From NCBI GenBank assembly GCA_904394685.1, contig CAJFNK010000065.1, forward strand, positions 1-64,000: a DNA stretch of 64,000 nt. The letters run 5' to 3'. The position numbers and the translations under genes are program-made. Numbering within the stretch: the first letter of the stretch is position 1; each line of letters starts with the position of its first letter. Positions 4,895 to 29,215 of this stretch are shown here, piece after piece. This DNA is from Candidatus Heritagella gallinarum (GTDB taxonomy: Bacteria; Bacillota; Clostridia; Oscillospirales; Acutalibacteraceae). The notes under the pieces were generated by a model, which searched no databases, had not been told where the DNA came from, and worked only from the letters and a program-made list of their open reading frames with translations.

Positions 4895-5902
4895 TTACCG
4901 TTGTTTTTCTTTTCCCGGCGCAGATTCCCGCAATACCAGCTCGTGGGCAAGCAGGATGGTTCGCTCTGGGGATTTTTGATTTTCGATTTTTTCTGCCAGC
5001 AGGTGCAGTGCTGTTTCCCCAATCTTCTTTTTGGGCTGGGAAACTGTGCTGACAGACGGCGTGACAATTTTACTCACCGTTGTGTTGTCAAATCCAAATA
5101 CCGCTACTTCCTTTCCGGGGTACAGCCCCATTTGCAGCAGCTTTTTGCACACCCCGGCGGCGATCTCGTCTGAAACCGCAAAAATGGCGTCCGGCGGCTC
5201 CGGCAGAGCCATCAGCTTGCCGCAGGCCAGCATCCCGGCTCGATAGGTATATTCATACCGTTCGATCAGATACTCCGGACAAAAAGGCTTTCCCGCTTCC
5301 AAAAGCGCCCGGCGGTAGCCCTGTGTCCGCTGTCTGGCGGAATACATCTCCTGGTTAGAAATCATGGCGATTCTTTCACGCCCGCTTTGCAGCAGCGTTT
5401 TCACGGCGTCATACCCGGCCCGTTCATTGTCGATTCCCACCGCAGAGATTCGGATTCCTTCTTCCCATTCGCTGCACATCACCAGCGGATATTGCTGCGA
5501 AAGCGTGGCCAGCTCCTCCGACGGCAGTGTGCTGCCCACCAGAATCATCCCATCCACACTGTGGTTATGAAGCAGTTCCAGATAGCTTCGTTCCAGCTCC
5601 GGGTCGTTGTGGGTCGCAGAGATCATCACCTGTAAATGCAGTTTCCGGGCTTCGCTCTCCATCCCCCGGATTACACCCGAAAGGAACTGGTTGGAGAGGG
5701 AGGGAATCAATACCAACACCCGGTCGGTCGTGTTTTTTCGCAGGTTTCGTCCCAACACATTGGGAACATAGCCGATTTCCTGTACCACTGCCAACACCTT
5801 TTCACGGGTTTGAGTGGATACGTTTTTATCCTGATTCAGCACACGGGAAACCGTGGCAACCGACACCTGGGCGGCTCTTGCCACATCTTTAATTGTTGGC
5901 AT
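4895..5902 (-). CDS. LacI-family transcriptional regulator
   Basis: About 335 residues from the chosen ATG. The N-terminal LacI helix-turn-helix TIKDVARAAQVSVATVSRVL is canonical (residues 3-22), followed by the hinge helix and a periplasmic-binding-protein-like effector domain (RVLVLIPSLSNQFLSGVIRG onward). The start is ATG 5900-5902, preceded by GGAGG with 7 nt spacing; a longer frame reads back through the operator and lacks an SD. The gene probably represses itself through the perfect palindrome just upstream and also the adjoining dehydrogenase/isomerase genes. The effector is presumably the sugar or an intermediate, which cannot be deduced here. Confidence 0.93.
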   Translation of the reverse strand: MPTIKDVARAAQVSVATVSRVLNQDKNVSTQTREKVLAVVQEIGYVPNVLGRNLRKNTTDRVLVLIPSLSNQFLSGVIRGMESEARKLHLQVMISATHNDPELERSYLELLHNHSVDGMILVGSTLPSEELATLSQQYPLVMCSEWEEGIRISAVGIDNERAGYDAVKTLLQSGRERIAMISNQEMYSARQRTQGYRRALLEAGKPFCPEYLIERYEYTYRAGMLACGKLMALPEPPDAIFAVSDEIAAGVCKKLLQMGLYPGKEVAVFGFDNTTVSKIVTPSVSTVSQPKKKIGETALHLLAEKIENQKSPERTILLAHELVLRESAPGKEKQR

Positions 5903-5915
5903 AGCAGCACCTCCA

Positions 5916-5929
5916 TGTAATCGATTACA
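5916..5929. promoter_or_regulatory. LacI-type operator (perfect 14-bp palindrome)
   Basis: TGTAATCGATTACA is a perfect palindrome with the central CG typical of LacI/GalR operators. It lies between the -10 box and the ribosome binding site of the LacI-family gene, a position that would block its transcription. No second perfect copy was found in the window. Confidence 0.75.
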
Positions 5930-5935
5930 GTTCCT

Positions 5936-5963
5936 ATTATACAAACATTCTTTTCAAAAGCAA
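5936..5963 (-). promoter_or_regulatory. promoter of the LacI-family gene
   Basis: TTGCTT (5958-5963), a 16-nt spacer and TATAAT (5936-5941) on the minus strand. The operator starts 6 nt downstream of the -10, overlapping the expected start of transcription. Confidence 0.65.
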
Positions 5964-6024
5964 GTTGGAATTATGACGGTTTTCTCCCCTGTTTCTTTGT
6001 ACACATTCACGGTTTTTTGGCTGT

Positions 6025-6064
6025 AAAAAATTCCGGAACAAGCGTTTGAAAGGCTGTTCCGGAA
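6025..6064 (-). terminator. rho-independent terminator of the URO-D family gene
   Basis: TTCCGGAACA (6031-6040) pairs with TGTTCCGGAA (6055-6064). Read on the minus strand the hairpin is followed by six T residues. It lies just after the stop codon of the methyltransferase-like gene. Confidence 0.8.
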
Positions 6065-6078
6065 TCGGTTTGATAGAC

Positions 6079-7050
6079 TTATTTGATTGATTTTGATGGC
6101 TGGGCGCACGACTCAGCTGCTTCTACCACCCAGCGGATATGTTGGATGTCAATGTCACCGGGCAGCGTACAATCCGCCCCCAAAAGGATGCCGCTGGTTC
6201 CGGTGCTTTGAATTAGTTGTTGGGTGTATGTCTGGATAGATTCTTTGGTTCCGCTGTATAACAACCCGGACGGCCGGTTGTCAAAGCCGCCCAGCACCGG
6301 TTTGCCGAAAAATTGCCGTCCTTCCCGCAAATCCATTCCTTCGATAGAGGTTGCCCAGTTGAATACGCCTGCCGGGTAATCCTGCCAGACTTCGAGGTTA
6401 TTTTTGACGCCCGCCCAGCCGCAGCAGTGCAGGATATTATACAGGCTGAACTGGTTGGCATGGTTCAGGACGAACCGGTCGCTTGGGCCAATCAGGTTGC
6501 GGTAGTCACTGGGAGAAAAGCGGTTTTGTTCCCCGCCCTGTACACAGTAATAGATTCCGTCCATCCCGGCCTGCTGGATGAGAAGCTGTGACAAGAGGGC
6601 GTTGGTGCGGGCAATCATGCCCAGCGCATAACACAGACCCTGTGGGTTTTCTTCCAGCGACTGCATGACAAACTCCTCGGAGGAGCCAAATCGGATGGAG
6701 GAGAAGGGGGCAAAAACGTTATAAAAGATACATACATCCTGTCCCAGCCCTTTTCGGATCTTTTTAGCCCGTTCCAGCTGCTCCTGAATATAGGGATGGC
6801 TGGCCGGCAAAGGTTCCAGCGTGTCCCAGTCGGCGGGGGTTTTGATGGAATCGGGCAGAGGGTATTCGAAATATCCGTCGCTCATCACCTTGAGAAAATC
6901 AATCCCGGATTCTCGGTAGTAGGCAAGGTGAGCGTCAATACACGCCTTCCCCTTTGCCTTTTCGGGCGGGAAATGGAACCAGAAGCCCACAGGGGGACGA
7001 TCGACGGGTTTATTTTGAAAAGCGTGCAGGACTCTTTTTCGTTTGTCCAT
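6079..7050 (-). CDS. uroporphyrinogen decarboxylase (URO-D) family protein, probable methyltransferase-type
   Basis: About 323 residues. It opens MDKRKRVLHAFQNKPVDRPPVGFW, a common start for URO-D-fold proteins, and contains GIDFLKVMSDGYFEYP and the late segment HCCGWAG resembling the zinc-ligand region (HxCx) of corrinoid-dependent methyltransferases. The fold serves haem synthesis (HemE) and cobamide-linked methyl transfer; the absence of haem genes nearby and the HCCG motif favour the latter. The start is ATG 7048-7050 with AAAGGAG 9 nt upstream; upstream codons in frame lack an SD. No corrinoid protein gene is adjacent, so the substrate is unknown. Confidence 0.82.
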   Translation of the reverse strand: MDKRKRVLHAFQNKPVDRPPVGFWFHFPPEKAKGKACIDAHLAYYRESGIDFLKVMSDGYFEYPLPDSIKTPADWDTLEPLPASHPYIQEQLERAKKIRKGLGQDVCIFYNVFAPFSSIRFGSSEEFVMQSLEENPQGLCYALGMIARTNALLSQLLIQQAGMDGIYYCVQGGEQNRFSPSDYRNLIGPSDRFVLNHANQFSLYNILHCCGWAGVKNNLEVWQDYPAGVFNWATSIEGMDLREGRQFFGKPVLGGFDNRPSGLLYSGTKESIQTYTQQLIQSTGTSGILLGADCTLPGDIDIQHIRWVVEAAESCAQPSKSIK

Positions 7051-7241
7051 GAAAATCGCTCCTTTAAAGCCATGGTGGTTTTTATGACAGAGCGTGTTGA
7101 AAAGCGGGTTTCTACCACAAGCATACGGTGATTTTTCAGCAGAATCCATATCGGGTTTCTCAATACGCCTGTTGCTTTGTTATGATTAAGAATAGTGTAT
7201 CGCAAAACACAGGCGTTTTAAGTTTAAAAATAGAATAAAGT

Positions 7242-7403
7242 TTATTTTTTTTGTGAAAAAGAGCCGGATTTTGGATAAATGGAGAGTGGGACAGGGGAAT
7301 CCTTACAGGCCATCTCCTCGGTTTCCTGTTGTGCCCGCTGTAACAGGGAAATGCAATCCGTTACAGCGTTGAAAAGATGAAGATACGCTTGCTGATAGTC
7401 CAT
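7242..7403 (-). CDS. small hypothetical protein (53 aa)
   Basis: A 53-codon frame starting ATG 7401-7403 and ending TAA 7242-7244, encoding a protein that begins MDYQQAYLHLFNAVTDCISL and contains LLQRAQQETEEM, a mostly helical, acidic-to-neutral N-terminal half. This N-terminal pattern resembles a family of tiny proteins seen in many Clostridia (from memory, not verified). A GAGGTG element lies 6-8 nt upstream. It starts 8 nt after the PH-domain gene, so it is probably co-transcribed. Function unknown; no membrane segment or signal peptide. Confidence 0.55.
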   Translation of the reverse strand: MDYQQAYLHLFNAVTDCISLLQRAQQETEEMACKDSPVPLSIYPKSGSFSQKK

Positions 7404-7411
7404 AACACACC

Positions 7412-8806
7412 TCACAAATCAGAAAAAATCCCCAGATGCTCCCGTATCCAATTTTCCGCTTCCTGCTTTGAAATATGGCAGAGCTTATACCGGGCCATCC
7501 AGCCGCCGGTGGTTTGGAGTACCAGCGTACAGCGGCCGGTAATGCGCTGTGCCGGGTTTTGTAGATACTGCACCCCGGTGATCTGGGTGGGGTCGATGCG
7601 GGCGCCGAACAGCGTGAACACCCGAACCCCCCGGATACACACCTGCCCGTGGTGCATGGTGAGGCCGGAGCAGCAGTAGCCCAACAGCCGGATGGCAAAA
7701 AACCAGACGGCGGGCAGCAGCAGCAGAGGGAACACCGGCAAAAGGAAATCCAAAAATGGCAGCATCCGCTGCTCTAATAATAGCAGCACCAGAAAAATCA
7801 CGGCCGGCAGCCACAAAAACGAAAACCATGCCCCACGATGGGGACGCAGGTCTTTTTCGCTGAAATCGGGCAGCAGCCCCAGCCGCAAAAGCGCCGGGCG
7901 CTCTTTTCTTCCCAGAGCGGGATGCAAAATCATGCGGCCGCCACCCTGGAGATACCCCTCGGCCCGGTAGATTCCAAGCAGCGCCATGGGAAGGGTTTGC
8001 AGCAGTGCCACAGAACCGATGGACGACAGGGATACCTGGGCTTCACGCCGGGGCCATAGGCCAAACCGGAAAAAAATCGTCTTTTTGTGCTTTTCCCAGG
8101 AAAAGGGCAGCAGCGCCACACTTTCCCGCAAAAAAGAAACCAGCCATCCGGCCAGAAACAGCCAGCTGATTCCCGCAATTGCAGGGGGGATTCCCAGTGC
8201 AATGAGCCGCACCCGCTGGTCGGCGGCGTTTACCAGCCGCAGGGCGATTTCCTTCCCCAAAAGAGAGCTGGCAGAGCGGAAAAAGATGGTTGCCAGCAGC
8301 AGGCCGGAAGCGGGGTTGGAGAGCAGTGCCGCCGAAAGCAGCGCTTTTGGGATAGAAGCCCGCCGCCATTTGCGGCGATGTGGGGCAGATGGGTGCGGGA
8401 GCGACTTTTTAAAAAGCGGCAGGCGGAGCTTTCCCCAGCCGGGAACGCCGGGGTCAAAAAAGACGGCGCCGGTGAGAAACGAGAGCGGAGAAGTTTCCCG
8501 GCTGGGCAAAAGTGACCAGGAACGGCGCAAAATATAGGTGCGCCGCAAAAATAGGCCATGGCGATAAGCATAGGAGAGCCGGGTGACCTGCCAGCGGGAT
8601 TGCTGCCAGAGCAGGAAGAAATAGACCAGCAGCACCAGCGACCCACCCAGTAAATAGTCGGAAGGGCTGCCGCCGCTGAGGAAAACCTGAATCAGAGGCA
8701 GAAAAAAGATGGGCAGTACCCGGAAAAATGTTTTTTGGAAAAAGAGCGGATGGAGCCGGCGGCGAAAATAGCGCCGGAAATTTTGTAGCCAAAGCGGCTG
8801 TTTCAT
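7412..8806 (-). CDS. PH-domain (YdbT-like) multi-pass membrane protein
   Basis: 464 residues. Paired hydrophobic segments (roughly 25-70, 195-235, 325-375) alternate with beta-rich bacterial PH segments: RLSYAYRHGLFLRRTYILRR (about 75-95) and GLTMHHGQVCIRGVRVFTLF with DPTQITGVQYLQNPAQRITGRCTLVL at the C-terminus (about 380-440). This layout matches the YdbT/YdbS family of membrane proteins with repeated DUF304-type PH domains. The start has AAAGGAATGGTACG upstream. It is followed by a tiny ORF and preceded by a Crp/Fnr gene with its own terminator. The family is implicated in envelope stress and bacteriocin tolerance in other Firmicutes; the role here is not known. Confidence 0.8.
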   Translation of the reverse strand: MKQPLWLQNFRRYFRRRLHPLFFQKTFFRVLPIFFLPLIQVFLSGGSPSDYLLGGSLVLLVYFFLLWQQSRWQVTRLSYAYRHGLFLRRTYILRRSWSLLPSRETSPLSFLTGAVFFDPGVPGWGKLRLPLFKKSLPHPSAPHRRKWRRASIPKALLSAALLSNPASGLLLATIFFRSASSLLGKEIALRLVNAADQRVRLIALGIPPAIAGISWLFLAGWLVSFLRESVALLPFSWEKHKKTIFFRFGLWPRREAQVSLSSIGSVALLQTLPMALLGIYRAEGYLQGGGRMILHPALGRKERPALLRLGLLPDFSEKDLRPHRGAWFSFLWLPAVIFLVLLLLEQRMLPFLDFLLPVFPLLLLPAVWFFAIRLLGYCCSGLTMHHGQVCIRGVRVFTLFGARIDPTQITGVQYLQNPAQRITGRCTLVLQTTGGWMARYKLCHISKQEAENWIREHLGIFSDL

Positions 8807-8848
8807 CGTACCATTCCTTTCACGGGCGGGATGGCAAACCCGGCGGGG

Positions 8849-8889
8849 AAAAACGGTTTTCCATCCCCCAAAAAACCAGAGTGGAAAAC
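8849..8889 (-). terminator. terminator of the Crp/Fnr gene
   Basis: GTTTTCCA (8856-8863) pairs perfectly with TGGAAAAC (8882-8889). On the minus strand the hairpin is followed by CG and five T residues. It separates the regulator from the PH-domain gene. Confidence 0.65.
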
Positions 8890-8934
8890 TTGCCCGGAAA
8901 GGGCTGCTTTCTTATCTTCCCCCGATTGCCGTGG

Positions 8935-9549
8935 TTATGCCAATGAAAAATCTGCCAGCGATTCCAGCTGCAAGACCCGCAGCTCCCGATATCCGGTTTG
9001 AATCCATTGCTTTTTGGCGAATTTTTGCAAAATACGGTTGATGGTCACTCTGGAAGCCCCGATTCGGGCGCCCAGCTCCTCGTCGGTGCAAGACAGGCAG
9101 GCCGACCCGCTTTGAGCCGCCTCTACCAGAAACCGGGCGAGGCGCTTATCGGCGGGGAGAAACGCCATGCCGTCCACCTGCGCCGAAAGAATCCGGACGG
9201 TTTCGGAGAGCGCCCGCATCAGGTGCAGGGCGAATTCGGGGTGGCGGCGGATGTGGGCGGTGAGTACCTCCCATGAAATCGCCACGATTTCGGATTTTTC
9301 CAGCACCCGTGCCGAGGACACCCGTGGCTGGCGGTCAAAAAAGGCGGCTTCTCCAAAAACGCCGCCTTCGGTTTGAATCCGAAGCGTTTTTTCGGCGCCG
9401 GTTTCCGAGGTCATATAGATTTTCACGCTGCCTTTTTTGAGATAATACAGGCGCTCGGCGGTTTCTCCCTGCCAATAAACCGTGGAGCCTTTTTGATATA
9501 CGAGCGTTGGGGCAAGGCTGCAAAGGGATTCCCAGCCGTTTGTTTTCAT
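8935..9549 (-). CDS. Crp/Fnr-family transcriptional regulator
   Basis: About 204 residues. An N-terminal cyclic-nucleotide-binding-like beta barrel (TVYWQGETAERLYYLKKGSVKIYMTSETGAEKTLRIQTEGGVFGEAAFFDRQPRV, about 23-77) is followed by a long dimerisation helix and a C-terminal winged helix with the recognition motif LGARIGASRVTINRILQKF (about 160-178). There is no N-terminal Fnr-type cysteine cluster, so iron-sulfur oxygen sensing is unlikely. The start is ATG 9547-9549 with GGGAGG 8 nt upstream; the longer frame begins at TTG without an SD. It is divergent from leuC, sharing a 150-bp intergenic region, but control of leuCD is only a possibility. Confidence 0.88.
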   Translation of the reverse strand: MKTNGWESLCSLAPTLVYQKGSTVYWQGETAERLYYLKKGSVKIYMTSETGAEKTLRIQTEGGVFGEAAFFDRQPRVSSARVLEKSEIVAISWEVLTAHIRRHPEFALHLMRALSETVRILSAQVDGMAFLPADKRLARFLVEAAQSGSACLSCTDEELGARIGASRVTINRILQKFAKKQWIQTGYRELRVLQLESLADFSLA

Positions 9550-9701
9550 CTGTGTTTCCTCCCGTATCAAGCGGAGCCAGGGGCTTCTCTGTTTTGCCGT
9601 TCGATAAAAGTTTATTAGATTGTATCATGCTTTACATTCTTTTTGCAAGAGAAAGGATATAATCAAAGGGAAAGATTGTATTCGCAAAAGGAGGAATCCC
9701 T

Positions 9702-10967
9702 GTGGGAATGACCATGACACAGAAAATCCTTGCCGCCCATGCCGGGTTGGAGAAGGTAGAGGCCGGACAGCTTATCGAGGCCCGGCTGGATATGGTGCTG
9801 GGCAACGACATTACCAGCCCGGTGGCAATCAATGAATTTGAAAAATGCGGCGCCTGTTCGGTGTTTGATAAAGACCGCATCGCTCTGGTGCTGGATCATT
9901 TTGTACCCAATAAAGATATCAAGGCGGCGGAACAGTGCCGCCAGACCCGGAATTTTGCCGGGAAATATGACATCACCCACTTTTTTGATGTGGGACAGAT
10001 GGGCATTGAACACGCCCTGCTGCCGGAACAGGGCATTGTAGGCCCCGGCGACTGTGTGATTGGAGCGGATTCCCACACCTGTACCTATGGAGCGCTGGGC
10101 GCCTTTTCCACCGGCGTGGGTTCCACCGATATGGCCGCCGGTATGATTACCGGGAAAGCCTGGTTCAAAGTCCCCTCTGCCATCAAAGTGGTGTTGAAAA
10201 ACAAGCCCACCGGCTTTGTGGCGGGCAAAGACGTGATTCTGCACCTGATTGGTGAAATCGGGGTGGACGGCGCCCTCTATCAGTCGCTGGAGTTCTGCGG
10301 CGACGGCGTGGCGCACCTCTCGATGGACGACCGCCTGTGCATTGCCAACATGGCCATTGAAGCGGGCGCCAAAAACGGGATTTTCCCGGTGGACGATGTG
10401 ACCCGTGCCTATTGTGAGGGACGTTTCCGCCGCACGCCCGTAGAATACGCAGCAGACGAGGATGCCGAGTATACCCGTGTGGTGGAGATCGACCTTGCAA
10501 AGCTCCGTCCCACCGTATCGTTCCCCCATCTGCCGGAAAACACCCGCACCATCGATGAGATTGGAGAAACCGAAGTAAAAATTGACCAGTGCGTCATCGG
10601 CTCCTGCACCAATGGCCGCATGGAGGATTTGCGGGCTGCCGCCGCCATCCTGAAAGGCCGCAAGGTGGCCAAAAATGTGCGCTGTATCGTGATTCCTGGT
10701 ACCCAGCAGATCTATCTGGATGCCATGCACGAGGGGCTGCTGGAAATCTTTATCAGAGCGGGCGCAGTGGTGAGTACCCCCACCTGTGGCCCCTGCCTGG
10801 GCGGCTATATGGGTATCCTTGGCAAGGGAGAAAAAGCGGTTTCCACCACAAACCGCAACTTTGTGGGCCGTATGGGACATGTGGAGTCGGAGGTCTATCT
10901 GGCAAGCCCGGCGGTAGCCGCTGCCAGCGCCGTGACCGGCTATATCACCGACCCCGCCAGACTGTGA
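9702..10967 (+). CDS. leuC: 3-isopropylmalate dehydratase large subunit (LeuC/homoaconitase type)
   Basis: 421 residues. It isomerises 2- to 3-isopropylmalate in leucine synthesis together with the small subunit encoded next. The three [4Fe-4S] cysteines are visible: Cys302 in GSCTNGR and Cys362/Cys365 in [23 protein letters not shown] (121-133) is the aconitase-family signature. The GTG at 9702 has AGGAGG 7 nt upstream, better spacing than the ATG at 9708. TATAAT at 9658-9663 may be the -10 box, with a poor -35. The short form (about 420 aa) is the archaeal/clostridial type, which can overlap functionally with homoaconitase; leuA and leuB are not in this window. Confidence 0.93.
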
Positions 10968-17188: not shown

Positions 17189-17468
17189 AATATTAGAAAA
17201 CCGATGAGTAAGAGGAGTACGCACACAAAGTGCTTCCCACAGAGAGCCGGGGAGGGTGTGATCCCGGCGGAGGGCTGTATGCGGAATGGACTTACGAGGG
17301 CTGGGCGATAGCCGCTTGCGGCAGGTAGCTTTAGACGGGAACTCCGCCCGTTATCAAGGGAGCATACATGATGGTGTATGGAGAAAGTGGGCGAATTTCG
17401 CCAAACCGGGTGGTACCGCAGGAGTTAACGGCTCTTGTCCCTGTGAATACAGGGGCAAGAGCTTTTTT
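17189..17468 (+). promoter_or_regulatory. tryptophan T-box leader with terminator
   Basis: The T-box sequence GGGTGGTACCGC is at 17408-17419. Upstream is a Stem I region with an AGAGAGCCGGG distal part and the specifier context GGAATGGAC, placing the codon TGG (Trp) at 17287-17289. Downstream the terminator pairs GCTCTTGTCCCTGT (17431-17444) with ACAGGGGCAAGAGC (17449-17462), followed by TTTTTT. Uncharged tRNA-Trp would favour the antiterminator and turn on the following tryptophan synthase gene. The identity of the regulated gene agrees with the specifier. Confidence 0.93.
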
Positions 17469-21397: not shown

Positions 21398-21438
21398 AAA
21401 AGGCGCAGAGTGGGAAATTTCCGCTCTGCGCCTTTTTT
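21398..21438 (+). terminator. terminator of the ABC exporter gene
   Basis: AAAGGCGCAGAG pairs with CTCTGCGCCTTTTTT, a 12-bp stem with a T tract. Confidence 0.92.
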
Positions 21439-21531
21439 ACATGGATTTTACATGGGTTTGACCGGGATTGCACCTTGATACGATATGATGGATTTATAGG
21501 ATAAATTATACTGGGAATTTTTTTATCTTGC

Positions 21532-21562
21532 GACCCCGAAAATCTCAAAGTTTATCCGTATC
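21532..21562 (+). promoter_or_regulatory. putative SigI-dependent promoter of sigI-rsgI
   Basis: GACCCCG (21532-21538), 18-nt spacer, CGTATC (21557-21562). The same two elements with the same spacing occur upstream of the Asp-rich lipoprotein gene (23439-23469). SigI-type promoters in other Firmicutes have a C-rich -35 and a CGWA -10, which fits. The start codon is 21 nt downstream. Confidence 0.75.
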
Positions 21563-21583
21563 TCTATCTACAGGGGTGTCACC

Positions 21584-22321
21584 ATGAATCGGGAACAGGA
21601 TCTTACGGCACAGGTATATGCGGCTCAAAACGACAGGGACGCAGCCGACTGCCTGTTGCGGCAATACCTTCCTTTTATTAAATCTGAAACCGCCAAGTTC
21701 ATTCACCGTATCCCCATAGAGGGGGAGGATGATGAACTGAGCATCGCCATGTTTGCCTTCCACGAGGCTGTGATGAAATATCATCGTTCTCGTGGCGGGT
21801 TCCTGCATTTTGCTTCGGTTGCCATTAAAAACCGGCTGATTGATTATGCACGCCGGGAACGCCGCCACTCCAATCTGGTCTATCTTGACCAGCCGGAGCA
21901 GGAGGGGGAGGACAGCCGGAGCATGCTCGACCGGTTGGAGGATCAGCGCAATGAGGTGCAGGAGAGACAGGATCAATCGGCGGCGCAAAAGGAGATTTTG
22001 GAGTTTGCCGGACAGCTGGCAGACTTTGGGCTGGAGCTTACAGATATTGCCGAAAACTGCCCACGGCAGAAGCGCACGCTGGAGGCCTGCCATCGGGCAC
22101 TGGCCTTTGCGATTGCACATCCGGAGCTTTTGGAAAAGCTGCTTTCGAGCAAAAAGCTCCCGATTTCTCAGCTGGCGTCCGGCGCCGGGGTAGAAGTCAA
22201 AACGCTGGAACGGCATCGGAAATATATGGTGGCCCTGTTGTTGGCGTATACCAATGGATTTGAGATTATTCGGGGGCATCTGCGTCAGGTGGCTCCCCGG
22301 AAAGGAGGCAGGGCGTCATGA
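21584..22321 (+). CDS. sigI: RNA polymerase sigma factor SigI
   Basis: 245 residues, the usual SigI size. Region 2 is seen in DRDAADCLLRQYLPFIKSETAKFIHRI and DELSIAMFAFHEAVMKYHRSRGGFLHFASVAIKNRLIDYARRE (about 17-92); the C-terminal part contains PISQLASGAGVEVKTLERHRKYMVALLLAYTNGFEIIRGHL, a SigI-type region 4. It directs RNA polymerase to promoters of the GACCCCG-N18-CGTATC type proposed here, including its own. Its stop overlaps the rsgI start (ATGA), so both are translationally coupled. The SD is AGGGG 7 nt before the ATG. SigI responds to heat or envelope stress in bacilli and to polysaccharides in cellulolytic clostridia. Confidence 0.93.
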   Translation: MNREQDLTAQVYAAQNDRDAADCLLRQYLPFIKSETAKFIHRIPIEGEDDELSIAMFAFHEAVMKYHRSRGGFLHFASVAIKNRLIDYARRERRHSNLVYLDQPEQEGEDSRSMLDRLEDQRNEVQERQDQSAAQKEILEFAGQLADFGLELTDIAENCPRQKRTLEACHRALAFAIAHPELLEKLLSSKKLPISQLASGAGVEVKTLERHRKYMVALLLAYTNGFEIIRGHLRQVAPRKGGRAS

Positions 22322-23403
22322 AATATCTGGTGATGGAATCTCGCCCCAGCTATGCCGTGGTGTTGGATGAGGAAGGACGTTTCCTCAAGGTTGCCAACCT
22401 GGGGTATCAGGTGGGGCAGCGGGTGGATACGGTGATTGGTTTTCAGGAGGAAACATCTTCTCCCGCCAGAAAATGGGTGCCGCTTGTTTCGTTGGCGGCC
22501 TGCCTGTGCCTGATTACCCTTGCCGCTTTCCAGCTGGTGTTTTCTTCGATTGGAACGGTGCGGATGCAGATTAACCCGGACGTGTTGCTATCCGTCAACC
22601 GCTATAATTATGTGGTATCGGCAGAGGGGCTGAACGAGGACGGCTGGAAGCTGGTGGATGGATATCAGGCGTTTTGGAAAAAGGTGGAGGTCGTTTCGGA
22701 TGAGCTGGCAGACCGGGCGATGGAAATGGGCTTTTTGGAAGAAGGCGGCGAAATTACCCTGACGGTGGATTCTGAAGATGAAGGCTGGAAAACCGCTACG
22801 GAAGAAATGCTGCTGCTGGAACTGGATGTCCATTTTGAAAGCACGGTAAAGGTACAGGCCAATCACGATTCCCAGCAGGTGGCAAACGGGGAGGAGGATC
22901 ACACGGTGGTAATCCGACCGGAGGATATCGTTTCTCAGCTGGATGATTCCAATAATTCGTCGTCCTCGTCAAGCCAATCCAGTTCATCAAGTCGCCCCAA
23001 TCCGTCGAGTCGACCTGGTTCGTCGAGCCGGCCGGGCGATGATGACGATGACGATGATGACGGAGATGACGACGATGATCAGCCAAGCGTCAGCCGCCCT
23101 GCCGGGGATGATGATGACGATGATGACGGAGATGACGACGATGATCAGCCAAGCGTCAGCCGCCCTGCCGGGGATGATGATGACGATAACGATGATAACG
23201 ACGATGGGGACGATGATGATGACCAAAAGCCGTCGGCCGGGTCTTCTGCTGTCAGCCGTCCCGATGATGATGACGACGACGAACGTCCCGCCGGTACTGG
23301 GGGAACCTCTCGTCCTGCTGAAAACGATGACGATGACGGCGATGATCGTGATGATGACAGTGGGGACGACGGGGATAATGACCATGATGACGATGACGAA
23401 TAA
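22318..23403 (+). CDS. rsgI: RsgI-type anti-sigma-I factor with poly-aspartate tail
   Basis: 361 residues. N-terminal cytoplasmic anti-sigma domain (1-50, MESRPSYAVVLDEEGRFLKV), one membrane helix (about 53-75), then an extracellular domain containing MQINPDVLLSVNRYN; Asn86-Pro87 corresponds to the Asn-Pro self-cleavage site known for RsgI SEAL domains. From about residue 208 the chain is Ser-rich, then strongly acidic: long Asp blocks separated by QPSVSRPAG. RsgI holds SigI at the membrane and releases it after proteolysis. In cellulolytic clostridia the outer end carries carbohydrate-binding modules; here it is poly-Asp, suggesting a cation- or cell-wall-related input (inference). The start overlaps the sigI stop. 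Confidence 0.9.
   Translation: MKYLVMESRPSYAVVLDEEGRFLKVANLGYQVGQRVDTVIGFQEETSSPARKWVPLVSLAACLCLITLAAFQLVFSSIGTVRMQINPDVLLSVNRYNYVVSAEGLNEDGWKLVDGYQAFWKKVEVVSDELADRAMEMGFLEEGGEITLTVDSEDEGWKTATEEMLLLELDVHFESTVKVQANHDSQQVANGEEDHTVVIRPEDIVSQLDDSNNSSSSSSQSSSSSRPNPSSRPGSSSRPGDDDDDDDDGDDDDDQPSVSRPAGDDDDDDDGDDDDDQPSVSRPAGDDDDDNDDNDDGDDDDDQKPSAGSSAVSRPDDDDDDERPAGTGGTSRPAENDDDDGDDRDDDSGDDGDNDHDDDDE
23041..23172 (+). repeat. 66-bp tandem duplication inside rsgI
   Basis: Two in-frame 66-bp copies (23041-23106 and 23107-23172) differ at one base only. Each encodes 22 residues: an Asp-rich block followed by QPSVSRPAG. The near identity implies a recent expansion, and the following copies are degenerate. 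Confidence 0.92.
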
Positions 23404-23438
23404 GGACTTTAAAAAAATATTTGAAAAAAATTCCATTT

Positions 23439-23469
23439 GACCCCGGTTTTGAAAAATTGCTTGCGTATC
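23439..23469 (+). promoter_or_regulatory. putative SigI-dependent promoter of the Asp-rich lipoprotein gene
   Basis: GACCCCG (23439-23445), 18-nt spacer, CGTATC (23464-23469), identical in both elements and spacing to the promoter proposed upstream of sigI. The ATG lies 74 nt downstream. Confidence 0.75.
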
Positions 23470-23542
23470 CTGTATACAGTAAGCAAAAACAAAACAAATC
23501 CAAAATCAAAAAATTTATTTATGAGGTAAAGGAGTTTTGAAC

Positions 23543-24661
23543 ATGAAAAAGACCAATCTGAGAGCAAAAGCCATTGTGATCGCCGCCGCTATGGGAATGA
23601 CCCTGTTTACCGGCTGCATGTCCGCACAGGAAAAACCCGCTGCCGCCTCTAACCAGAACCAGCAGAGCGCTGCCGCCGGAACCATGCTGTTGAGCGTGAA
23701 CCCCGAAATTGAAATCGATTATGATGACAAGGGAAAGGTTCTGGAAATCGAAGGCAAGAACGATGATGGCAAAAACGTGGTGAAGGGATACACCTCCTAT
23801 GAAGGAAAAGACTGCGAAGCCGTGGTAAAAGAGCTGGTGGAAAAAATCTACGAAGGCGGATACTTTGAGAAAACCGTTGGCGGCCATGAGAAAAACATCG
23901 TGGTAAAGCTGGCAGAAGGTTCGAAATATCCTGATGACGATTTTCTGGAGGATGTAGCCGAGGGCGTTCGTGGCGCAGTGAAAAACTGCCATCTGGAATC
24001 CTCTGCCATTACCGTTGACGAAGACGATTATGCAGAGAACGGATATATCGGACTGGAAAAGGCCAAAGAGCTGGTGCTGGCACAGTTGGGACTGAAGGAA
24101 GCCACTTTTACCGACCGTGAATATTCCCTTGACGACGGCGTATATGAGCTGGAGTTTACCGCAAATGGCGTGGAGTATGAGTTTGAAGTGAATGCGGTTA
24201 CCGGCAAAATTCTGGAAGCCGATTATGAGCATAACGACGACTGGAAAGACTATGACGATGACAAAGACGACGATCACGATGATGATCGTGACGACGACAA
24301 GGATGATAAGGACGATATTGACGACAAGGATGATAAAGACGATAAAGATGATGATCAGGACGACCGTTATGATGACGATGACGACGATGATCGCCCGGCC
24401 GCAACAGCCAAGCCTACTTCCAAGCCGTCTGTAAAGCCCAACTATAACGATGACGACGATGATGATGATCGTTATGATGATGACCGGTATGAGAATGACG
24501 ATGATGACCGCTATGACGATGACAAGGACGACGATAACGACCGTGATGACGATGATAAAGACGACGATCACGATGATGACAAAGATGACGACCATGACGA
24601 CGATGATGATGATGACAAAGATGATGACCGTGACGACGACAAGGACGATGATGATGACTAA
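23543..24661 (+). CDS. Asp-rich lipoprotein with SEAL-like and PepSY domains
   Basis: 372 residues. A signal peptide ends in lipobox LFTGC with Cys25 as the lipidated residue. Residues 48-75 (MLLSVNPEIEIDYDDKGKVL) match the RsgI middle/SEAL-like pattern, including Asn53-Pro54. Residues about 167-230 (GYIGLEKAKELVLAQLGL through VNAVTGKILEADY) are a PepSY domain. The remainder (231-372) is almost all Asp with Lys, Arg, His and Tyr, plus a short ATAKPTSKPSVKP linker. ATG 23543 has AAAGGAG 8 nt upstream. It has its own SigI-like promoter and a downstream terminator. Probably surface-anchored; the tail suggests binding of divalent cations or basic wall components (inference). Confidence 0.88.
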   Translation: MKKTNLRAKAIVIAAAMGMTLFTGCMSAQEKPAAASNQNQQSAAAGTMLLSVNPEIEIDYDDKGKVLEIEGKNDDGKNVVKGYTSYEGKDCEAVVKELVEKIYEGGYFEKTVGGHEKNIVVKLAEGSKYPDDDFLEDVAEGVRGAVKNCHLESSAITVDEDDYAENGYIGLEKAKELVLAQLGLKEATFTDREYSLDDGVYELEFTANGVEYEFEVNAVTGKILEADYEHNDDWKDYDDDKDDDHDDDRDDDKDDKDDIDDKDDKDDKDDDQDDRYDDDDDDDRPAATAKPTSKPSVKPNYNDDDDDDDRYDDDRYENDDDDRYDDDKDDDNDRDDDDKDDDHDDDKDDDHDDDDDDDKDDDRDDDKDDDDD

Positions 24662-24788: not shown

Positions 24789-24832
24789 AAAAAAGCTCTG
24801 CTATCTGGAATCACAGACAGCAGAGCTTTTTT
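24789..24832. terminator. bidirectional terminator between lipoprotein gene and purC
   Basis: AAAAAAGCTCTGCT pairs with AGCAGAGCTTTTTT, so a T tract follows the stem in both directions. It serves the converging lipoprotein gene and purC. Confidence 0.92.
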
Positions 24833-28987: not shown

Positions 28988-29215
28988 AATACCCCCGTCC
29001 CAACAAAGGGACGAGGGGATATCCTCGTGGTGCCACCCTTTTTCAAGGACGCAAAAGCGCCCTCCTTTTCCTTCTTTAACGCAGAAGAACGTGCGGCAAA
29101 CCGCAACAGCTCCCGGGTGTCCTTCTGGGGTTTTCTATTTCCGGGCAGACTCTCAGTCACGGCCTGCCCTCCCTGTGGAGAAACCCCCATACTGCTCCCG
29201 TTCATCGCTGTATGA
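28988..29215 (-). promoter_or_regulatory. T-box leader of hisS-aspS
   Basis: On the minus strand GGGTGGCACCACGAGG (29023-29038) is the T-box sequence. The terminator pairs CCCCTCGTCCC with GGGACGGGGG and runs into TATTTTATTTT (about 28985-29018); the ACGAGG/CCTCGT part can form the competing antiterminator. The specifier area reads GAAGGACACCCGGGAG, with GACAC at 29117-29121 containing both GAC (Asp) and CAC (His). The leader begins almost directly after the mgsA stop codon, and no clear promoter lies between, so it may be transcribed from within or upstream of mgsA. Confidence 0.9.

Follow-up and report, generated by a model that had tools for sequence, protein, structure and literature searches.

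A SigI-RsgI locus of Candidatus Heritagella gallinarum with a probable single target that duplicates the sensor domain

What does a sigma factor serve if the promoter that it probably reads is found only twice in the genome, once ahead of its own gene? The question is raised by a locus of the gut bacterium Candidatus Heritagella gallinarum that encodes a SigI-type sigma factor, an RsgI-type anti-sigma factor and an acidic lipoprotein, and that lies in a 64,000-nucleotide (nt) stretch, positions 1 to 64,000 of contig CAJFNK010000065.1 (GCA_904394685.1), referred to here as the window. An earlier note on this DNA had pointed to two identical motifs ahead of sigI and the lipoprotein gene. We find both on the + strand, with the same elements and the same spacing: GACCCCG-N18-CGTATC, each of 7 + 18 + 6 nt, at 21532-21562 (GACCCCGAAAATCTCAAAGTTTATCCGTATC) and 23439-23469 (GACCCCGGTTTTGAAAAATTGCTTGCGTATC). 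The sigma-I promoter of sigI-rsgI carries an AAAA tract within its 18 nt and ends 21 nt before the ATG of sigI (21584). That of the lipoprotein gene carries a TTTT tract, is placed 36-66 nt past the rsgI stop codon and ends 73 nt before its ATG (23543). Since the spacers differ and the promoter elements alone match, a recent sequence duplication of the two sites is ruled out. Published sigma-I promoters read ACCCCC--AA-15N-CGAA in Bacillales and C-----AAA-13/14N-CGWA in clostridia (PMC4711584), the A-tract being read by the C-domain of SigI and CGWA by its N-domain (PMC10575876). The -35 and -10 elements of both window promoters fit this scheme (GACCCCG AAAA ... CGTA at sigI's own promoter).

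The note had held such a match to be unlikely by chance, and none arose in 100 dinucleotide shuffles of the window searched for GACCCCG-N18-CGTATC. It had also proposed a whole-genome search for the motif, which we carried out on the 2.23-Mb, 99.9% complete assembly. GACCCCG-N14-21-CGTATC is not common: it has two matches genome-wide, upstream of sigI and of the lipoprotein gene, and the reversed control has 0. The 10-base core ACCCCG-N18-CGTA is likewise found at the same two sites only, its reversed control pattern at 6. Over 120 genomes of the family, matches to the exact pattern elsewhere occur at about chance level (~0.2 per genome for N14-21); being mostly chance and uninformative outside SigI loci, they were discarded as a guide to targets.

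Profile searches agree with the names that had been given to the three genes. The product of sigI (21584..22321, + strand; 245 amino acids, aa) is a SigI-type (Group V-like) sigma factor with a sigma2-like N-domain and a SigI C-domain, without sigma4. It scores 170.8 bits (E 3e-50) against NCBIfam TIGR02895 (spore_sigI), below the equivalog cut-off of 185 bits, which was reached in none of the 120 family genomes searched. By its profile score it is a divergent SigI subfamily outside equivalog TIGR02895. Open complexes have been solved with SigI6 and with SigI1, and the window protein aligns with these chains over aa 17-233, covering both domains (E 1e-19 and 6e-18); the C-domain alone (6ivu) aligns too. 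Three of the four residues by which SigI6 reads the -10 element (R97, R98, D101 and R104) are kept; R97, which acts as a wedge at -13/-12 according to PMC10575876, is replaced by N. At this position nearly all CGTA relatives have S, N or H and three CGAA loci of one genus have R, with G236 as an exception. As a lead that draws on few independent events, the R97-equivalent residue may determine which base stands third in the -10 element. Two loci of a CGAA-type SigI paralogue (L179 and L180; oriented copies 5664-9821 and 6145-10275) have a ~1380-aa surface-type protein downstream, replacing the lipoprotein.

The gene rsgI (22318..23403, + strand) overlaps sigI by 4 nt. Its product comprises a probable cytoplasmic RsgI_N domain (aa 4-36; PF12791, 24.8 bits, E 2e-5, gathering cut-off 25), a transmembrane helix (~aa 53-76), a SEAL/RsgI_M domain (aa 80-187; PF23750, 66.9 bits, E 3e-18) and an acidic, Asp-rich tail (~aa 200-361). 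The Asn-Pro (N-P) dipeptide of the SEAL domain is at aa 86-87 (22573-22578), within INPDV. A model of the ectodomain matches RsgI of Bacillus subtilis (8t9n; Foldseek E 8e-8) as well as the periplasmic domains of Clostridium thermocellum RsgIs. From gene order and domain, RsgI is predicted to bind and inhibit SigI. At one related locus (L088, genome G106), RsgI is without the N-P dipeptide and the lipoprotein is without SEAL, with PepSY-like repeats in place.

Relatives speak strongly for the promoters. We scanned 39 sigI loci: that of the window, those of same-order genomes that span nine families, and those of two contigs labelled Olsenella. The promoter precedes sigI at 37 of these 39 orthologous loci; for the gene that follows, the count is 29 at the score used, to which an extra weaker site in G213 and a CGCA version in L113 can be added; the loci without a detected promoter are in part contig ends. 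In these loci, the 468 kb of opposite strand held no site with a score of at least 18.9. The consensus across loci is gACCCCGgTTTT-N-CGTAttCTat, with a spacing of 18 in all genomes but two. Of the downstream sites, 34 of 39 have TTT as their tract; of the sigI sites, 11 of 35 have AAA, among them the window's. The two promoters, which had been called unusual, are indeed identical, but identical elements at both genes are the norm in this SigI subfamily and not peculiar to this genome.

The two sites also change together. G302 has CGGA at both, and this variant matches exactly twice in its genome, both times at this locus, and not at all in its congener G398. L114 has CGCA at both sites, and G416 has an N19 spacing at both. 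Such paired drift within genomes is expected of one sigma factor reading both promoters. Several genomes carry two or three promoter copies in tandem upstream of the lipoprotein gene, and one congener carries four (G101, locus L079, G101:C2:134375-134731), ~105-115 nt apart; from these arrays, the lipoprotein may reasonably be taken to be expressed at a high or graded level. In the same locus a minus-strand lipoprotein-like gene sits between rsgI and the four-promoter array. ACCCCG-N18-CGTA is found in G101 at lipoprotein-gene sites only, and a motif search in seven genomes returned matches mostly at the two positions of the SigI locus. The uniqueness of the promoters in the genome, their co-variation and the identities of the genes are established by sequence, model or phylogeny. 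The SigI-type identity proposed for the promoters is supported by their fit to published examples, their conservation over nine families and their co-variation within genomes. Given this conservation, the paired variants and the uniqueness, SigI-RsgI is very probably autoregulated, with the lipoprotein gene as its one dedicated output, as the note had claimed, and the regulon appears to be sigI-rsgI and this one gene.

The target had been described as an Asp-rich surface lipoprotein. It is that and more: on sequence and structural models, it is a paralogue of the RsgI ectodomain, lipid-anchored and with an added PepSY domain. The gene (23543..24661, + strand) encodes 372 aa, laid out as a signal peptide with the lipobox LFTGC at aa 21-25 (Cys25), a SEAL/RsgI_M domain at aa 48-166 (PF23750, 65.7 bits, E 8e-18), a PepSY domain at aa 169-225 (PF03413, E 5e-9) and an Asp-rich tail at ~aa 232-372. 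A lipobox is also present in the orthologues picked; these calls, that for the window protein included, come from a regular expression and inspection only. The AlphaFold2 model of the globular part has two domains and a mean predicted local distance difference test score of 78. Its SEAL part matches B. subtilis RsgI (8t9n_B; Z 14.6, root mean square deviation 2.4, 107 residues aligned) and also the periplasmic domains of C. thermocellum RsgIs, and its PepSY part matches the PepSY-type domains of YpeB/YpmB (Z ~8). The N-P dipeptide, here at aa 53-54 (23699-23704), is kept in 27 of 27 SEAL lipoproteins used and is invariant in both protein sets aligned. For both RsgI1 and RsgI6, the periplasmic-domain chains in the PDB start at the Pro of N-P, which is how a cut product should look.

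A tree was built from 61 SEAL domains, with 27 from lipoproteins and 27 from their partner RsgIs among them. In it, the lipoprotein domains form one clade (98/96) and those of the partner RsgIs another (96/88). The two clades are sisters, set apart from other RsgIs (97/88), and the subclades of the two halves agree; outer joins are uncertain owing to some long branches. As the simplest history, the tree indicates a single old duplication of the sensor domain, which would have stayed linked to the regulator since. Two further RsgI_M paralogues of the window genome were considered as additional lipoproteins and rejected: the one on C59 is membrane-anchored and without a lipobox, and the one on C48 is an anti-sigma factor with PepSY.

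The tails of the two proteins and the neighbouring genes vary among relatives. RsgI tails resemble the lipoprotein tail of their own genome over those of others (cosine 0.575 vs 0.441, 0/5000 permutations; 26 genomes, kinship ignored). Genes for VTC, DUF4956 and CotH lie directly 3' of the lipoprotein gene in 14 loci (listed: L079, L081, L166-L176, L185, L188, L191), and CotH alone does in one further locus, L177. TDY/DSGY-type tail repeats are present in 15 of 15 CotH loci and in none of the five CotH-less loci, a class defined as SEAL-lipoprotein loci with >5 kb of downstream sequence, two loci with a non-SEAL picked gene being left out. Plain Asp/Glu tails are present in all five, which are the window genome, G406, G302 and the two Olsenella contigs. 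Because G101 and G302 are placed among relatives of the opposite tail and CotH type, at least two correlated changes of tail type with CotH are likely. That the TDY/DSGY repeats are substrates of CotH is speculation.

How could such a circuit work? RsgI would hold SigI at the membrane, and its extracellular SEAL domain would cut itself between Asn and Pro, the halves staying associated. A signal or a pull on the long acidic RsgI tail would part these halves, RseP would cut the membrane helix, and the freed SigI would transcribe its own operon and the lipoprotein gene from the two near-identical promoters. The lipoprotein might then share or sequester the ligand or load of RsgI, so that the response would switch itself off. 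In studied RsgIs, periplasmic self-cleavage is followed by separation of the first strand on a stimulus, a cut by RseP and clearance of the remainder by ClpP complexes (PMC12203970). By analogy, autocleavage, the RseP step and the release of SigI are likely in this system as well; RseP is encoded in the window genome.

For the last step, two roles of the lipoprotein are equally plausible, and each is put forward tentatively. It is possibly a feedback partner of RsgI, a role favoured because of the domain identity, the kept N-P, the matching tails and the exclusive co-regulation. It could equally be a plain effector of the same regulon, namely an abundant wall-spanning anionic polymer that serves cation buffering, wall cushioning or as a scaffold or substrate for the CotH kinase or VTC, with SEAL as a mere anchor-and-release device. 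The VTC-DUF4956-CotH genes and the distribution of the TDY/DSGY tails favour such an effector, and the tandem promoters hint at high expression. However, it has no obvious need for the autoproteolytic domain of an anti-sigma factor with N-P in every copy, nor for a tail that tracks the sensor tail, and the window genome is without CotH and VTC at this locus. Rather unlikely in all its parts is the fuller version of the feedback role, in which the only conserved output is a lipid-anchored duplicate of a mechanosensor domain that acts as a decoy, sharing load or ligand and switching the response off. In this version the tails of sensor and decoy would co-evolve as substrates or partners of CotH/VTC, with poly-Asp tails replacing them where CotH is absent. 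Several observations weigh against the proposed circuit or its feedback part. The pairing of promoters is imperfect, as L113 has CGTA upstream of sigI and CGCA upstream of the lipoprotein gene; the conservation of N-P may come from the fold and not from cleavage; and acidic tails could be alike on general grounds, in a similarity test that ignores kinship. In addition, the SEAL lipoprotein is missing from the loci of G237, G168, G198b, G106, G236, G258 and G424 and is therefore not indispensable to SigI.

The extent of the regulon allows further alternatives. A larger set of SigI targets behind degenerate promoters is improbable, even if our searches covered near-consensus motifs only, the sigma-I regulons known from B. 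subtilis and C. thermocellum are large and VTC-CotH genes stand behind the lipoprotein promoter in some relatives. Against it, the 10-base core marks only two sites here, the searches in G101 and in the seven genomes point to the same places, and the conserved promoters of relatives are near the consensus, so that genuine targets would be expected to show up. A VTC cluster elsewhere in the window genome (C43) was rejected as a further SigI target, having no sigma-I promoter ahead. That the two motifs are due to chance, or are a small repeat that does not act as a promoter, has practically no probability. Position, spacing and paired variants are conserved over nine families and the motif is absent elsewhere in the genome; together with the shuffles, this led us to reject such an origin.

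The regulon had also been called self-contained. This is true as far as the sigma-I promoter goes but not beyond, since sigI is preceded by a conserved box of WalR/PhoP type: TGTAAAATCCATGTAAA on the - strand at 21436..21452 (+ strand TTTACA-N5-TTTACA), 132-148 nt ahead of the sigI start. It is the sole match to TGTWAH-N5-TGTWAH in the 64-kb window. With at most one mismatch, the same position in orthologues matches in 20 of 39 loci vs 18 of 1401 control segments, and three TTTACA-type repeats with an 11-nt period are present in 13 of the 39. Repeats of this period would presumably also suit a PhoP-type regulator. No box was seen in the Olsenella-labelled loci. TGTWAH-N5-TGTWAH is the WalR consensus (PMC9210968), and B. 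subtilis lytE is under joint control of WalR and SigI (PMC7299342). The conserved box is thus best described as a putative WalR- or PhoP-type site.

Autoregulated SigI-RsgI systems with such promoters are already known. With that of B. subtilis the present one has in common the gene pair, an ACCCC-type -35 and a CGWA -10 element, the RsgI SEAL domain (8t9n), and WalR-type control (putative here) beside SigI control, with a link to cell-wall stress there (PMC7299342, PMC7478892). The B. subtilis targets, however, are wall genes such as lytE, and no SEAL lipoprotein target was found in the cited accounts. Here, the spacing is 1 nt shorter, the -10 element is CGTA and the regulon apparently has one gene beyond sigI-rsgI. 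The C. thermocellum systems likewise have autoregulated sigI-rsgI pairs, promoters with A-tract and CGWA, an autocleaving periplasmic domain and regulated intramembrane proteolysis by RseP and ClpP complexes (PMC4711584, PMC6056542, PMC12203970), the last two features being predicted here. Most of their RsgIs bear carbohydrate-binding sensors and control cellulosome genes, whereas here an Asp-rich sensor tail is combined with a SEAL-lipoprotein target.

The domain pair of the lipoprotein recurs in the anti-sigma factor of an extracytoplasmic function (ECF) sigma factor in the same genome (C48, L091 5717-7953), where RsgI_M and PepSY sit in a membrane protein; here they sit in a free, SigI-driven lipoprotein. 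ECF/RsgI_M-PepSY pairs like that on C48 are also present in two genomes of the same genus, G497 and G499 (L200, L201). Autoproteolytic SEA/SEAL domains have the fold and the N-P site in common with the lipoprotein, which is lipid-anchored and has no cytoplasmic part. To our knowledge, known SEA/SEAL members signal through a membrane helix. A regulon that seemingly comprises a single paralogue of the regulator's sensor domain, conserved over nine families, seems to be new: a literature search, to which the primary SEAL-domain papers were out of reach, yielded no SigI-driven PepSY/SEAL lipoprotein.

The circuit bears on wall sensing by SigI/RsgI systems and on how their response ends. A target that copies the sensing domain suggests feedback of the output on the sensor. 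With a single SEAL protein as its target, this is a natural minimal circuit in which tuning of an anti-sigma factor by a shed or decoy SEAL domain could be tested directly. The matched promoter variants (CGTA, CGAA, CGGA and CGCA) are a natural set for the study of SigI -10 specificity. In addition, the relatives connect SigI with kinases of the CotH type and polyphosphate polymerases of the VTC type, which the literature examined was not found to do.

The unit may also have moved between distant hosts. L113 and L114, on Olsenella-labelled contigs of metagenome-assembled genomes with a GC content of 64-66%, hold the complete sigI-rsgI-lipoprotein unit. They nest within a Gallacutalibacter-related clade, which suggests a transfer of the complete unit, possibly between phyla. 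Alternatively, these contigs may be mis-binned.

Downstream of the lipoprotein gene, a probable bidirectional terminator (AAAAAAGCTCTGCT...AGCAGAGCTTTTTT) can be read from the sequence at 24789..24832, between this gene and the convergent purC. A terminator scan with a loop limit of 8, which excludes this likely terminator, gave no match there. Elsewhere in the window, two T-box leaders (Rfam RF00230) are present: one at 17195-17445 on the + strand, ahead of a gene for a pyridoxal-phosphate enzyme (PALP family), and one at 29004-29214 on the - strand, ahead of a likely histidyl-tRNA synthetase gene.

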